DNA of 64,000 nt, taken from positions 134,164 to 198,163 of the forward strand of contig JAJPJK010000009.1 in the NCBI GenBank assembly GCA_021324265.1. Reading direction: 5' to 3'. A program made the position numbers and the translations under genes. The notes under the pieces are model-generated. The model was not told where the DNA came from and did no database searches. It saw nothing but the letters and a program-made list of their open reading frames with translations. The DNA comes from Thermoproteota archaeon (GTDB taxonomy: Archaea > Thermoproteota > Thermoprotei > Gearchaeales > Gearchaeaceae). Position 1 is the stretch's first letter, and every line of letters begins with the position of its first letter. Positions 3,238 to 28,222 of the stretch are shown here, one piece after another.

Positions 3238-6198
3238 ATGGACTTAAGGACGGCTGTAAGTACCCTCTTAACAAATGTTTTGAATCAGTTAAACTATCAT
3301 CCGTTATTTTCACCTTATCTAAAAACTTCACATGAAAATCCGCCTCAATATTACCTACATCAGTGTGAGGTCATAGCTAGACTAGCTTTAAGAAAACCCA
3401 TACGAGTATTAATTGGTGACGAAATAGGCTTGGGAAAAACCATAACAGCCTTAGCGATAGCCAAATATCTAGAAAACACCGGAAGAGCAAAAAGAACCCT
3501 AATAATCGTTCCCAGAGTCTTGGTTTTACAATGGCGTAAAGAACTCATACGCATGGGCATCCCAACATCAAAAATCAGACATCTAGAAAGTGAGTATATC
3601 GAATTTTACAAAATGCAAAGCTTCCCAGAGGGCTACTACATTGCCTCAATGGATCTTTTAAAAAGAGAGGAACGAATTTCTCAGATAGTTGACGTAGAAT
3701 GGGATCTCATTATAGTAGATGAAGTTCACAAGTTTGGCTATAAAACAAAACGATTTCGGGAAATAGGGAAAAAGCTAATCGAGGCTAAGCCCTCGCGAAA
3801 TGTTATATTTCTATCTGCAACCCCTCACAGAGGTGACCCTAGAGATTACATACATCGCTTACAGCTACTTGATCCTTACCTAGTTGAAGATTGGAAAAAT
3901 CTTGATAAAAGGCTATTTTATGAGGTCACCCACGGCTCTATACTTTTTAGGAGAACTAAGGAGGATGTTAACACCGTCTATGAAGAGAAGAAAATTTTCA
4001 CAGATGCTAGGTTTTACGCTGGCCTTATAGCAGGAAGAGAAGATGAAAAAAAGTTTGTAAAAGACCTCGTATCATTCCTAAGAACGAAACTGATAGAGTT
4101 TGCATACGAAAAGGGATTGATAAGCGAGAAGGTGATTCCCCTCTTAATAATTTTGATATTCAAAAGAGCGACGTCAAGTCCCTATTCAGCATGGACAACA
4201 CTTCAAAGGCTATTGCTTAAAAGAGTCGAGCCAGATTTTCCAAAAGAGTTGGTTGCGAGTGTTGAAAGTTTTCTTGGAGTTGGATACGAAGACTTCGAGT
4301 ATGAGAAGGATCCGGAAGAATTATTTAATGATTTCTTAGATAGAGCGTCGTCTTTGCTAAGCGACAGTGATATGGAGAAAATAAGAGAGCTCAAAGATAT
4401 GGCTCAATCCATAATGCAAAAAGGGGACACAAAACTTAACGCCACGATATCTCTTCTCGAAGATATAATAGCTAAAACCGATTCGAAAGTTATAATATTT
4501 ACCGAATATAAGGATACGCTTGACTATATCATCAACAATTTGAAGAGTAAGCATCCTGAATGGAGCCAAAGTATATTGAGCTTAAGCTCAGAGGAAACGC
4601 GAGACGAAAAACTTTTCAGTAAAGTTCGCAACGACTTTGAAAGGAATCCTAAAGTAAGAATCCTTGTAGCCACAGACGTCATAGCCGAGGGTGTCAATCT
4701 GCAAGTAGCAAATGTAGTGATAAACTATGAAATTACGTGGAGCTTGATAAAGCTTGAACAAAGAATTGGAAGAGTTTGGAGGCTCGGGCAGAAAAGAGAC
4801 ATCGAGGCCTACACCTTATTTATGGATAATATTGCGGATAAAGCAGCTTTAAACTCCATGTATCAGAAGCTGTTAAACCTGAAAAGGGCAGAGCTTCAAC
4901 CAAGACCAATAACAGGACAAGAAGTGCTCTTCTTTTATGCTGAAGCCAAGGACTTAACGGAGCTTCCCCCCTCAGTAGCATTAGCTAAGGAAGAAAAGAA
5001 AAAGAAATTTGTCAAAGTAACTGAAGCGAAGTCCATAAAAACATATCTAGAATGGGATGAAGCAGGCCTTAAAGAGCTTGTTAGTTCAATTATAGCAGCT
5101 AAGAGAGAAATAGAAAGGGAAATTTCATCAAAAGGGATTCTATACAAGCCCCGCTCAAGAAAAGAGGTGGAAGAAACAATGAAACTTGTCGGCTTCAAAG
5201 ATCACAACGAAATATTTGATGCAATGAAAAAACTTCTCAGGGCATCAGCAGCAATATATGGCTTTAATATTCTTGAGGAGGGCGAAACCATCAAGATTTG
5301 GAAAGAATCGGAGATGCCAACTTACATAAATACATTAGACGGTTTTTTCGTCAGTTTAACTGGAAAAAGCAACACAAGCGAACCAATCTGTATAGTCGCC
5401 CAAGGTAAAGATGAAACATTAATAAGTTTAATACCAGTTTCAATCCAAGATAAGAGAGACAACACTACTTTATACCGAGATCTAATCGGTGTTGATTTAA
5501 CCCAAGGAAAAATTCTCAAAGGATCCTCACTTATAAATACGATCTCTCAAGCTATCATGAATTGCATAGGAGCTGAAAAACTCGACGATAGACTCAAGAA
5601 AATATCTATGGAAACTTATGCTAACATTATCGACGAAATAAAAAACGTAAGTGACATCCTCAATATTACAGATGCATACAAATCTCGACTCGAGAATAAT
5701 GGGCTAAGAGATCCTGATGGAACTTGGATCAGAAACTCAGATATTAAAGTAACCCTCTCAGACAGTGTAGGATATTTACATTTTGTAAAATTATCATCAA
5801 AACCTCCAGAAACTATACCAGAAGAAGTTAAAAGGGAAATTGAAAAGCAAGCCATTGAAAAAGTGCTAGCTGATGAGAGGGCTGAAGGACGTGTACCCTG
5901 TGTTGTGTCTGAAACAGAACATTATGACATAAGAAGCGTAAGCCCGTCAACGGGCGAGGTTAGGCTGATAGAAGTGAAGGGACATAAAGGTCTCGAAATC
6001 TACGCGGAACTAACAGAGGACGAAGCGGAAGTTGCGGAAAAATGTAAGGAGCGATATTGGCTTTACATAGTTTACGATATAGGAAGCGGATACCCGAAAG
6101 TGTTGAAATTTCATAATCCCTTAGAAACTATGGATCTACAAGTTTTTGAGAGAAAGCAAAAAAGATACATTTTGAGACCGAAAACTGAGGAAGAATAG
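3238..6198 (+). CDS. SNF2-family helicase/translocase with C-terminal DUF3883 (NOV_C) domain
   Basis: Superfamily 2 ATPase of the Swi2/Snf2 type. Visible motifs, numbered from ATG 3238: Walker A GDEIGLGKT near residue 61, motif II DEVH near 161, motif III LSATPHRGD, and the C-lobe stretch ATDVIAEGVNLQ with QRIGRVWRLGQ (motifs V and VI). The last 120 residues hold LIEVKGH near residue 910, the signature of DUF3883/NOV_C, a PD-(D/E)xK-like domain. SNF2 plus NOV_C proteins are common in restriction-like defence islands. A TTG start at 3214 would overlap the previous gene by 11 bases; ATG 3238 is preferred. The TAG stop overlaps the GTG before the next gene. Confidence 0.85.
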   Translation: MDLRTAVSTLLTNVLNQLNYHPLFSPYLKTSHENPPQYYLHQCEVIARLALRKPIRVLIGDEIGLGKTITALAIAKYLENTGRAKRTLIIVPRVLVLQWRKELIRMGIPTSKIRHLESEYIEFYKMQSFPEGYYIASMDLLKREERISQIVDVEWDLIIVDEVHKFGYKTKRFREIGKKLIEAKPSRNVIFLSATPHRGDPRDYIHRLQLLDPYLVEDWKNLDKRLFYEVTHGSILFRRTKEDVNTVYEEKKIFTDARFYAGLIAGREDEKKFVKDLVSFLRTKLIEFAYEKGLISEKVIPLLIILIFKRATSSPYSAWTTLQRLLLKRVEPDFPKELVASVESFLGVGYEDFEYEKDPEELFNDFLDRASSLLSDSDMEKIRELKDMAQSIMQKGDTKLNATISLLEDIIAKTDSKVIIFTEYKDTLDYIINNLKSKHPEWSQSILSLSSEETRDEKLFSKVRNDFERNPKVRILVATDVIAEGVNLQVANVVINYEITWSLIKLEQRIGRVWRLGQKRDIEAYTLFMDNIADKAALNSMYQKLLNLKRAELQPRPITGQEVLFFYAEAKDLTELPPSVALAKEEKKKKFVKVTEAKSIKTYLEWDEAGLKELVSSIIAAKREIEREISSKGILYKPRSRKEVEETMKLVGFKDHNEIFDAMKKLLRASAAIYGFNILEEGETIKIWKESEMPTYINTLDGFFVSLTGKSNTSEPICIVAQGKDETLISLIPVSIQDKRDNTTLYRDLIGVDLTQGKILKGSSLINTISQAIMNCIGAEKLDDRLKKISMETYANIIDEIKNVSDILNITDAYKSRLENNGLRDPDGTWIRNSDIKVTLSDSVGYLHFVKLSSKPPETIPEEVKREIEKQAIEKVLADERAEGRVPCVVSETEHYDIRSVSPSTGEVRLIEVKGHKGLEIYAELTEDEAEVAEKCKERYWLYIVYDIGSGYPKVLKFHNPLETMDLQVFERKQKRYILRPKTEEE

Positions 6199-20857: not shown

Positions 20858-23439
20858 GGGAAGAAACTGAATATACGATTAAGGGCATAAAGCTCAGTAT
20901 ACTATCGCCAGACGAGATTAGGAAGATGTCTGTCGTAGCAATAACTGTACCGGATACATATGATGAAGAGTGGACACCTATTCCTTTCGGTCTAATGGAT
21001 AGTAGGCTTGGAACAATAGAACCACTTCAAAGCTGTGCTACATGCGGCGAGAGAATGGAATCCTGTCCAGGACATTTCGGAAGAATAGAACTCATAAGAC
21101 CTGTGCTACATGTAGGTTTCATAAAGAACATATATCAAGCGCTCCAAGCTACTTGTGTAGAGTGCAAGAGAATATTGCTGAAAAAAGAAACGATTGAAAA
21201 ACTTCATGCACTTATAAAGAAGTATGTTGATAGAAATCAACCCTATTTCGCAAATCTCTTAATCAACCTTGCGAGTAAAAAGGCTTCTAAGACAGATATA
21301 TGCCCACATTGCAAAACACAACAGCCCAAGATAAAGTTTGAAAGACCGTTTTATTTCTATGAGGAAGGAGAGAAGGGCTCAAAGCTTCTCTCGCCTTATG
21401 ATATCTATGAACGCTTCAAGCAAATACCTGAAAGCGATGCTATCTTACTAGGTTTTATTCCTCCCAGTAGGCCTGAATATACAATACTATTCGTTTTACC
21501 AGTACCGCCAATCAGCATTAGGCCCTCTATAACGCTAGAAACTGGTGAGAGATCTGAAGATGACTTAACTCATAAGCTTGGAGATATCGTGAGAACCAAT
21601 GAGAAATTGAAGCAAAGTATTGATTCAGGTTCTCCGCAATTGATCATTGATGAGCATTGGAATCTACTCCAGTTCCATGTAGCAACGTATATAGATAATG
21701 AGATCGCAGGCTTGGCACAAAGCGTGCATAGATCTGGCAGGCCTCTTAAAACGCTTGCTCAGAGATTAAAGGGCAAAGAGGGTAGATTTAGAAACAATCT
21801 CTCAGGGAAAAGAGTCAATTTCTCTACGAGGACAGTCGTTTCTCCAGATCCATTCATAAGCATAAACGAGGTAGGTATTCCTTATGAAGCTGCTCTTAAA
21901 TTAACGATACCTGAAGCTGTAACAGCATGGAATATTGAAAGGCTAAGAAGGGCAGTGATAAATGGAACAGAGGTTCATCCTGGTGCTAATTATGTGATCA
22001 GGCCTGATGGTAGACAAATAGATCTTAGATTTGTCAAGGACAGAACCCAGCTAGCCCAGCAACTAGGCCCAGGCTGGATAGTTGAGAGGCATTTGCTCGA
22101 TGGGGAGCTTGTCATATTCAATAGACAGCCCTCGCTTCATAGGCTCTCTGTCATGGCCCATAGGATTAAGGTCTTGCCAGGTAAGACTTTGAGAATAAAT
22201 CCGATGGTATGTCCGCCTTATAATGCAGATTTCGATGGGGATGAGATGAACTTATTTGTCCCTCAATCACCTGAAGCCAGAGCAGAGCTGGAAGAAATAA
22301 TGACTGTTGAGAAACAAATACAGACTCCTAGATATGGTGGTTCAATCATAGGAGCATTACATGATTACATAACTTCAGCATTCCTTTTAACTAGGAAGGG
22401 CACGAAACTCAATCGTTTCGTAGCTGCATTCGTTATGGGAATGGGAGAATATAAAGGTGAGTTGAAGACTTCAGGGCGAGAAATATTCGAAAGCTTCCTT
22501 CCAGAAATAGATTACGAGAACAAGCCCATGGCAGTTTTCGATGAAGATGACAAGCTCTTGATCATAAAGAAGGGCAAAATAATAAAAGGTGTTATAGATC
22601 ATAACGCTATAGGTGATCAAAAGAATAAGACGCTGATTTCAAAGATATACTTCAATTATGGTCCAAGCGCTGCAGCAGCTTTCTTGGATAAGACTAGCAA
22701 GATGTTGCTTGGCTTCCTCGATCATTACGGTTTCAGCATTGGATTGGATGATCTTCATCTCGATGAGTCTGTCTACAAAGAAGTCGATGCACTAATTGCG
22801 AAGCATTTTGAAAAAGTCAACGAATACATCGAAAAATACAACAGAGGTGAACTTGAAAGAGAACCTGGTGCAACAATAGAGGAGACGTTGGAGCAACGCA
22901 TTATGGATGAGCTCAACATAGCTAGGGATGAAGCAGGAAAACTCGTTGAAAAGTATTTCTCGAAGGATAATTCTATTTTGATAACTGCAAAAACTGGAGC
23001 TAGAGGTAAGATGTTGAACTTATTCCATATGACTGCATGCATTGGTCAGCAAGCTTTAAGAGGCAAAAGAATAAACAGGGGCTACGAGAACAGGACACTT
23101 TCACACTTCAAGAAAGGAGATATATCGCCTGCTGCTAGAGGCTTCATAAAGAGCAACTACATAAAAGGGCTTTCTCCAATCGAATTCTTCTTCCATGCAG
23201 TTTCTGGAAGAGAAGGTCTTGTAGATACAGCTGTGAGGACATCCCAAAGCGGTTACATGCAGAGGAGATTGATAAATGCGCTTTTAGATCTCCATGCAGA
23301 ATACGATGGAACAGTTAGAGATAGCGAAGGGAATATTATCCAGTTCAGATATGGTGAAGATGGCGTTGATCCTAGCAAGAGCTATGGTCATGATCCTGTT
23401 GACTTAGATGGGATAATAAAAGAGGTGCTTGAGGAATGA
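20848..23439 (+). CDS. rpoA1: RNA polymerase subunit A' (Rpo1N)
   Basis: The 863-residue protein is the N-terminal two thirds of the largest subunit. It has the clamp zinc site ([16 protein letters not shown]), a second CVEC...CPHC zinc site, the catalytic Mg-binding [10 protein letters not shown] at residues 459-468, and bridge-helix sequence near its end ([21 protein letters not shown]). The break from A'' is at the usual archaeal position. Overlaps rpoA2 by four bases. Confidence 0.98.
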
Positions 23440-28080: not shown

Positions 28081-28124
28081 AGCTTATTAGAACTTTCTTT
28101 CTTTATTCTATTTAGCCGGGATTA

Positions 28125-28222
28125 GCCGGGATAATAATTTCCCGAAAGCCTAGCCAGGAAAGGCGCAGGCCTTGAGAGCCTGTGGGCTTTTGCCCTCGTG
28201 GGTTCAAATCCCACTCCCGGCG
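28125..28222 (+). tRNA. tRNA-Ser(TGA) with a 14-nt intron at position 8/9
   Basis: Long variable arm tRNA with acceptor GCCGGGA/TCCCGGC, anticodon loop CTTGAGA on stem CAGGC/GCCTG (anticodon TGA) and T-arm GTGGGTTCAAATCCCAC, discriminator G. The two other serine tRNAs here start GCCGGGATAGCCTAGCC. This one has 14 extra bases inserted after GCCGGGAT; removing 28133-28146 restores that sequence exactly. CCA is not encoded. Confidence 0.9.
28133..28146 (+). other. Predicted bulge-helix-bulge intron in tRNA-Ser(TGA)
   Basis: Central 4-bp helix CGGG (28127-28130, exon) with CCCG (28141-28144, intron). Three-base bulges ATA (28131-28133) and AAA (28145-28147) flank it. Cutting each bulge after its second base removes 14 bases and joins GCCGGGAT to AGCCTAGCC. 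The outer helix is short (GC with GC), so this is a relaxed motif. Confidence 0.82.

Follow-up and report, generated by a model that had tools for sequence, protein, structure and literature searches.

Acceptor-proximal introns in Thermoproteota tRNA genes are accompanied by an upstream copy of the acceptor strand that probably serves as a temporary stand-in

Here, we examined a tRNA-Ser(UGA) gene in a 64,000-nt stretch (hereafter, the window) of a Thermoproteota genome assembly of 1.45 Mb (95% complete, 25 contigs). Between positions 23436 and 28760, the window carries genes for EF-1 alpha and S10, followed by tRNA-Ser(UGA) and then by an AdoMet decarboxylase-like gene. The tRNA gene, at 28125-28222 of the forward strand, on which its parts and the upstream elements described below lie, includes a 5′ exon, GCCGGGAT (nucleotides 1-8 of the tRNA; 28125-28132), a 14-nt insert, AATAATTTCCCGAA (28133-28146), which separates nucleotides 8 and 9, and a 3′ exon, AGCCTAGCC (nucleotides 9-73; 28147-28222), with the anticodon TGA at 28173-28175, the acceptor 3′ strand TCCCGGC at 28215-28221 and no encoded CCA. 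The 7-nt acceptor 5′ strand, GCCGGGA, is present twice, at 28115-28121 (copy 1) and at 28125-28131, within the 5′ exon (copy 2); with the spacer TTA (28122-28124), the copies form a near-perfect tandem repeat with a 10-nt unit and one difference. Copy 1 could form 7 Watson-Crick pairs with the acceptor 3′ strand, and a possible box A, the TATA-like CTTATTAG (28083-28090), lies 32 nt upstream of it, with a weak score of 5.6. The S10 protein is 79% identical to that of the MAG Thermoprotei archaeon CPBay_Spr30G08_23, its closest named relative. In a related locus, L077, an S10 match and a similar downstream gene likewise flank the tRNA gene; the element CPBay in the isolate name of this relative suggests Chesapeake Bay water (PMC8201625), an odd source for a Thermoprotei label.

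Removal of the insert yields an ordinary 84-nt tRNA that ARAGORN identifies as tRNA-Ser(tga). The unspliced gene receives no ARAGORN call, and its Rfam match is partial, covering model positions 6-65 only. A preliminary description of the locus, made from the sequence, had proposed an intron at position 8/9, the excision of which restores the start common to the other two serine tRNA genes of the window, and both of these indeed read GCCGGGATAGCCTAGCC. The insert and its flanks form a bulge-helix-bulge (BHB) motif with a 4-bp central helix, CGGG/CCCG, and two 3-nt bulges, ATA and AAA, exactly as previously described; the flanking helices are weak in this gene, the inner one consisting of 1 bp and the outer one of 2 bp (GC/GC only), in line with the weak outer helix noted before.

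The same architecture is found in relatives. Intron and copy 1 occur together in all 4 genomes of the order in which tRNA-Ser(UGA) was found; the fragmentary genome G002 yielded no match to this tRNA. With slashes at the splice points, the gene of G001, from the same family, reads GCCGGGA-CTA-GCCGGGAT/AACTTTCCCGAA/AGCC, and those of G003 and G004, which belong to a second family in the order, read GCCGGGG-CTCCTA-GCCGGGGT/TGTAAAAAAGACCCCGAG/GGCC and GCCGGGG-ACTCCCAG-GCCGGGGT/AGGCCCGCTGCGCGGGTCCCCGAA/GGCC, respectively. The introns vary in sequence and length while keeping the BHB, the inner and central helices of which change in a compensatory manner, and the relatives agree on the splice points within the bulges that the preliminary description had chosen. 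Because the same BHB recurs at the same site in three relatives with different sequences, the insert cannot be attributed to chance. The 7-mer is conserved in G001, G003 and G004 and tracks acceptor position 7 (A with U, G with C); the leader and the spacer have diverged between families, and in the relatives with 8/9 introns the spacer is 3-8 nt long and unconserved. Three of the 3 outgroup genomes from the same class (G005, G008 and G036) have a plain tRNA-Ser(UGA) gene with neither intron nor copy.

No second tRNA-Ser(UGA) gene, intron-free or otherwise, is present among the 44 tRNA matches in this 95%-complete genome, the other serine genes being CGA, GCT and GGA; a second, intron-free gene was one of the findings that the preliminary description had named as refuting its reading. 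Accordingly, although the failure of ARAGORN to call the gene might suggest a pseudogene or a misassembly with a meaningless insert, this is extremely improbable: it is the sole tRNA-Ser(UGA) gene found in the genome, its cloverleaf is intact and covarying, and the same architecture appears in separately assembled relatives. Judging from the sequence comparisons, the insert is almost certainly a BHB intron that interrupts a single-copy archaeal tRNA-Ser(UGA) gene at position 8/9. The genome encodes two PF01974 proteins (splicing endonuclease subunits), an alpha subunit that matches the solved chains 3p1z_B/3ajv_B at 1.4e-39 and has the histidine of GIDHAPF, and a divergent second (beta) subunit. 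We infer that the endonuclease assembles as (alpha-beta)2; the presence of both subunits is as expected for the relaxed-motif enzyme postulated previously. The RNase P RNA is encoded in the same genome (G000:C15:99265-99571).

The combination of an acceptor-proximal intron and an upstream copy is not confined to tRNA-Ser(UGA). An Rfam tRNA search of the relatives revealed, in G003, a Phe(GAA) gene with an intron at 8/9 and a Val(GAC) gene with an intron near 4/5, each with its own matching copy, and a pattern scan of 398 Thermoproteota genomes identified Cys(GCA) genes of the same plan in another family. A covariance model built from seven precursors gave 53-79 bits for the known cases and 44 bits or less for ordinary tRNAs. 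Applied to the 398 genomes of the phylum, where many matches below about 55 bits were ordinary tRNAs, the model added Cys genes in family f23 and in G266, His(GUG) with an intron at 9/10 in f23, Ser(UGA) in family f36, both Gln genes of G301 with introns at 10/11, Phe in G148 and, probably, Asp in G255; the splice points are less certain in the Val, G148 Phe and G255 Asp genes. In a scan of 49 further genomes, mostly from other archaeal phyla, only the known family member G405 (the genome of L077, equal to G001 in place and score) scored high, and two matches at 48-50 bits fell within the range of ordinary tRNAs. Two Glu matches of the phylum scan led to family f4, in which all 22 of the Glu and Asp genes with a BHB at 3/4 carry an upstream acceptor copy, compared to 0 of 6 intron-free homologues (threshold of at least six Watson-Crick pairs; a weak, G.U-rich match at -43 was not counted). 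Family f4 fits the known Thermoproteales 3/4 introns (PMC4090602) and resembles Thermoproteaceae. Thus, the putative device is shared by at least eight isotypes in Thermoproteota (Ser, Cys, His, Phe, Val, Gln, Asp and Glu), and the introns that it serves lie between positions of about 3/4 and 10/11.

Which of the two copies provides the mature 5′ end has to be decided. One could take copy 1 as the true 5′ end, with a single longer intron (24 nt in the window gene) that starts after its position 8 and includes the second copy. Indeed, a T follows copy 1, too, in the window gene, such that removal of the 24 nt would produce the same mature tRNA, and the promoter spacing in family f4 points to copy 1 as the transcript start: in 19 of 20 genes, the distance between box A and copy 1 is 27-31 nt. 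In the ordinary tRNA genes of the source genome, the median distance from box A to the mature 5′ end is 34 nt. However, the base after copy 1 is C in the Ser genes from G001 and G003, A in that from G004, and C or G in the G143 and G226 Cys genes, all of which would be incompatible with U8; the base after copy 2 is always T. Furthermore, in all 8/9 genes, the BHB and its 3-nt bulges are situated at the second copy, and the 3/4 site of the 3/4 genes accommodates a 4-bp BHB; finally, the G.U variants of copy 1 (see below) would leave wobble pairs in the mature acceptor. The longer intron is therefore improbable, and copy 1 was rejected as the mature 5′ end given that U8 is violated in the relatives. 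Because U8 follows copy 2 in every relative of the 8/9 type, the mature 5′ end must, on this comparison, be the second copy (28125). Given that the spacing between box A and copy 1 in f4 equals the ordinary spacing between box A and the 5′ end, copy 1 itself is probably located at the extreme 5′ end of the transcript. The preliminary description had set the start of the feature at 28115, which takes in copy 1, but had left the tandem copy itself undescribed; its account of the intron, the site, the splice points and the weak helix stands, but is incomplete in treating the site as an isolated oddity.

The association between intron and copy was assessed in an unbiased set of 115 distinct tRNA genes fetched without use of the covariance model. 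A copy 9-38 nt upstream of the gene is present in 5 of 5 genes with an 8/9 intron and in none of the 110 others; the same 115 genes have no copy (0/115) in a control window placed further upstream. The Val gene is outside this set because its second copy is interrupted. The Fisher p values of about 7e-9 for the 115-gene set and 3e-6 for the f4 set both ignore shared ancestry, and genes within one lineage are not independent. Introns elsewhere in the tRNAs of Thermoproteia lack an upstream copy. There are exceptions of the opposite kind. The Phe gene of G085 (L291/L268, G085:C29, about 4264-4349) is intron-free with an intact copy, GCCGCGG, which could be a relic of intron loss or a chance match, and a handful of scan-selected, GC-rich genes have a copy without an intron, where the copies could likewise be chance or relics. 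In genus g39, the upstream sequences of the intron-free His gene of G103 and Cys gene of G117 are mismatched, although in the latter case the comparison is based on a loose resemblance.

It is the pairing that appears to be preserved. Where the copy deviates from the acceptor strand (GCCCTGG, GCTCCGG, GGGTCGG, GGCCCGG), every change results in a G.U pair, as expected if selection acts on pairing rather than on identity, and the pairing between copy 1 and the acceptor 3′ strand covaries at two positions. These patterns bear on the notion that copy 1 is a passive scar of intron origin, left by a tandem or target-site duplication and playing no role. The near-perfect tandem repeat in the window gene would be in keeping with such an origin, and direct repeats near introns have been reported to be common (PMC11782384). 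However, it is the spacer and not the intron that is flanked by the repeats; the 7-mer has persisted where leader and spacer diverged between families; and the deviations of the copy keep the pairing. Moreover, a scar would hardly be expected to recur in eight isotypes with several intron positions, to be mismatched in the two intron-free relatives and to be absent where introns lie elsewhere in the tRNA. We consider a functionless scar quite improbable.

The central helix of the BHB uses acceptor nucleotides 3-6 of copy 2, so that the BHB and the acceptor stem are mutually exclusive. This competition would account for the fact that the transcript contains the 7-nt acceptor 5′ strand once more, further upstream, and the folding predictions speak to the same point. 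In the window gene, the central helix of the BHB has a predicted probability of 0.978 in the presence of copy 1 and of 0.008 in its absence, and the predicted pairing of copy 1 with the acceptor 3′ strand is 0.999; across 13 genes of six isotypes, the latter ranges from 0.73 to 1.00 (37 or 75 C). When copy 1 is deleted, the helix strand of the 8/9 motif moves onto the acceptor in most genes; the response is weaker in the 3/4 genes and in the Ser gene of G003 at 37 C, where the BHB is independent of copy 1. Even with copy 1, the BHB probability is modest or near zero in the G003 Phe, G103 Cys and G186 His genes and in the 3/4 genes. In the trimmed alignment, 95.9% of the pairs are kept by the structure, with double changes at 14 pairs, and sliding the alignment register destroys the pair support; the alignment was hand-trimmed and N-padded, such that the pair counts lean towards the stated structure.

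These predictions also leave room for another function, whereby the main contribution of the copy would be not to free the BHB but to provide an acceptor stem that protects the unspliced precursor and allows its 3′-end processing and CCA addition. In the predicted folds of all 13 genes, the acceptor stem is completed by copy 1, and in the 3/4 genes, where the acceptor strand is interrupted, the BHB probability at 37 C drops slightly or not at all when the copy is deleted; by contrast, most 8/9 genes are predicted to lose the BHB itself without the copy. That this is the main function is possible, if doubtful; the two roles are compatible, and tRNase Z cleavage and CCA addition on the unspliced precursors may benefit from the copy as well.

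Thus, the sequence comparisons and the folding model make it quite likely that copy 1 acts as a surrogate acceptor strand, guarding the precursor up to the splicing step and being trimmed thereafter. In the proposed pathway, copy 1 would first pair with the acceptor 3′ strand, so that the cloverleaf is complete, with copy 1 standing in for copy 2 in the acceptor and copy 2 itself unpaired, whereupon copy 2 and the intron would pair into the BHB; these two steps are supported by the conservation and by the predicted folds. The (alpha-beta)2 endonuclease would then cut after U8 and before A9, and the exons would be ligated; by branch migration, copy 2 would displace copy 1, and RNase P would remove copy 1 together with the spacer. 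We infer these later steps, as well as a requirement for copy 1 in splicing. The predicted folding supports guarding by copy 1 and not a spontaneous swap after splicing: in the nearest-neighbour model, the spliced RNA still prefers copy 1 over copy 2 in the acceptor, so that the swap would need tertiary folding, coaxial stacking or capture by RNase P, all of which are outside the model. Tertiary contacts of the tRNA core and the irreversible RNase P cleavage could drive the swap.

Taken more broadly, the observations lead us to favor, with somewhat less assurance, a general principle, namely, that, in archaeal tRNA genes, introns invading the acceptor strand are accompanied by a disposable duplicate of this strand at the 5′ end of the transcript, with an obligatory swap between splicing and RNase P cleavage. 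It would apply to at least eight isotypes in several lineages, including the 3/4 introns of Thermoproteales, and would be widespread although undescribed. Such a principle would account for introns located where the same nucleotides are claimed by the splicing motif and by the acceptor stem, and predicts an ordered pathway from the stand-in acceptor through splicing and strand swap to RNase P. The 3/4 introns of Thermoproteales tRNAs were reportedly described by Sugahara et al. in 2008. Like these, the introns considered here lie inside or near the acceptor 5′ strand, and the f4 genes of the 3/4 type also carry the copy.

Archaeal BHB introns at non-canonical tRNA positions have been reviewed (PMC4090602, PMC3218864, PMC8450103). 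The positions named in the consulted part of one review are 20/21, 22/23, 25/26, 29/30, 30/31, 45/46, 53/54, 56/57, 59/60 and 3/4, followed by "etc." (PMC4090602); 8/9, which the preliminary description had tentatively considered an uncommon site, far from the usual 37/38, is absent from this open-ended list, and the passages of this review on the Thermoproteales 3/4 introns do not mention an acceptor copy. The tRNA-Ser(UGA) intron resembles the non-canonical introns in being short, with a 4-bp central helix, 3-nt bulges and presumed cleavage by an (alpha-beta)2 endonuclease of relaxed specificity; it is unlike those named there in its position, in the consumption of the acceptor strand by the central helix and in the upstream acceptor copy. 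As in split and permuted tRNAs (Nanoarchaeum, Caldivirga, Thermofilum; PMC3218864), a leader base-pairs in the precursor and a BHB sets the joints; unlike in those tRNAs, there is one transcript with the parts in normal order, and the leader would pair with the acceptor 3′ strand and take no part in the BHB. A split or permuted tRNA was rejected, all parts of the gene being in order and contiguous within 108 nt, and so was a C8-edited tRNA of the Methanopyrus type, T8 being present in the 5′ exon of every 8/9-type gene found. The reviews and the tRNAscan-SE 2.0 paper discuss introns close to the 5′ end, and introns in the region of the acceptor stem are mentioned in one paper; the parts of these sources consulted do not mention an acceptor-strand copy. 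In the literature searched, we found no earlier description of 8/9 introns or acceptor-strand copies, although the primary papers on Thermoproteales introns may contain a prior mention.

For gene finding, an acceptor-strand repeat upstream of a tRNA can flag hidden introns at positions 3 to 11, where ARAGORN can miss the gene and Rfam can match it in part. Several tRNA genes encountered in the genomes deserve a brief record. Introns in the D-loop, without a copy, are present in tRNA-Ser(GGA) of two genera and in tRNA-Lys(TTT) (L161/L209, L186 in G003; L166 in G004). A tRNA-Glu gene with a 3/4 intron (L304, G051:C19) carries two upstream acceptor copies, GCTCCGG and GCCCCGG. At L208 (G004:C177:3300-4272), about 4057-4140 of the contig, the 3′ part of a Pro(GGG)-like tRNA ends in CCA, with no matching acceptor 5′ strand within the upstream stretch examined, making it a candidate for a split tRNA or for a long acceptor-proximal intron. 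Among the 44 tRNA genes of the source genome, tRNA-Leu(TAA) was not identified, due to either an assembly gap or disruption beyond recognition. In G007 (L237, G007:C1:1330768-1331114), the 5′ body of a Leu(TAA)-like tRNA adjoins a T arm and an acceptor 3′ strand, CCGGGGC, that mismatches the acceptor 5′ strand, and this gene is possibly split or rearranged.
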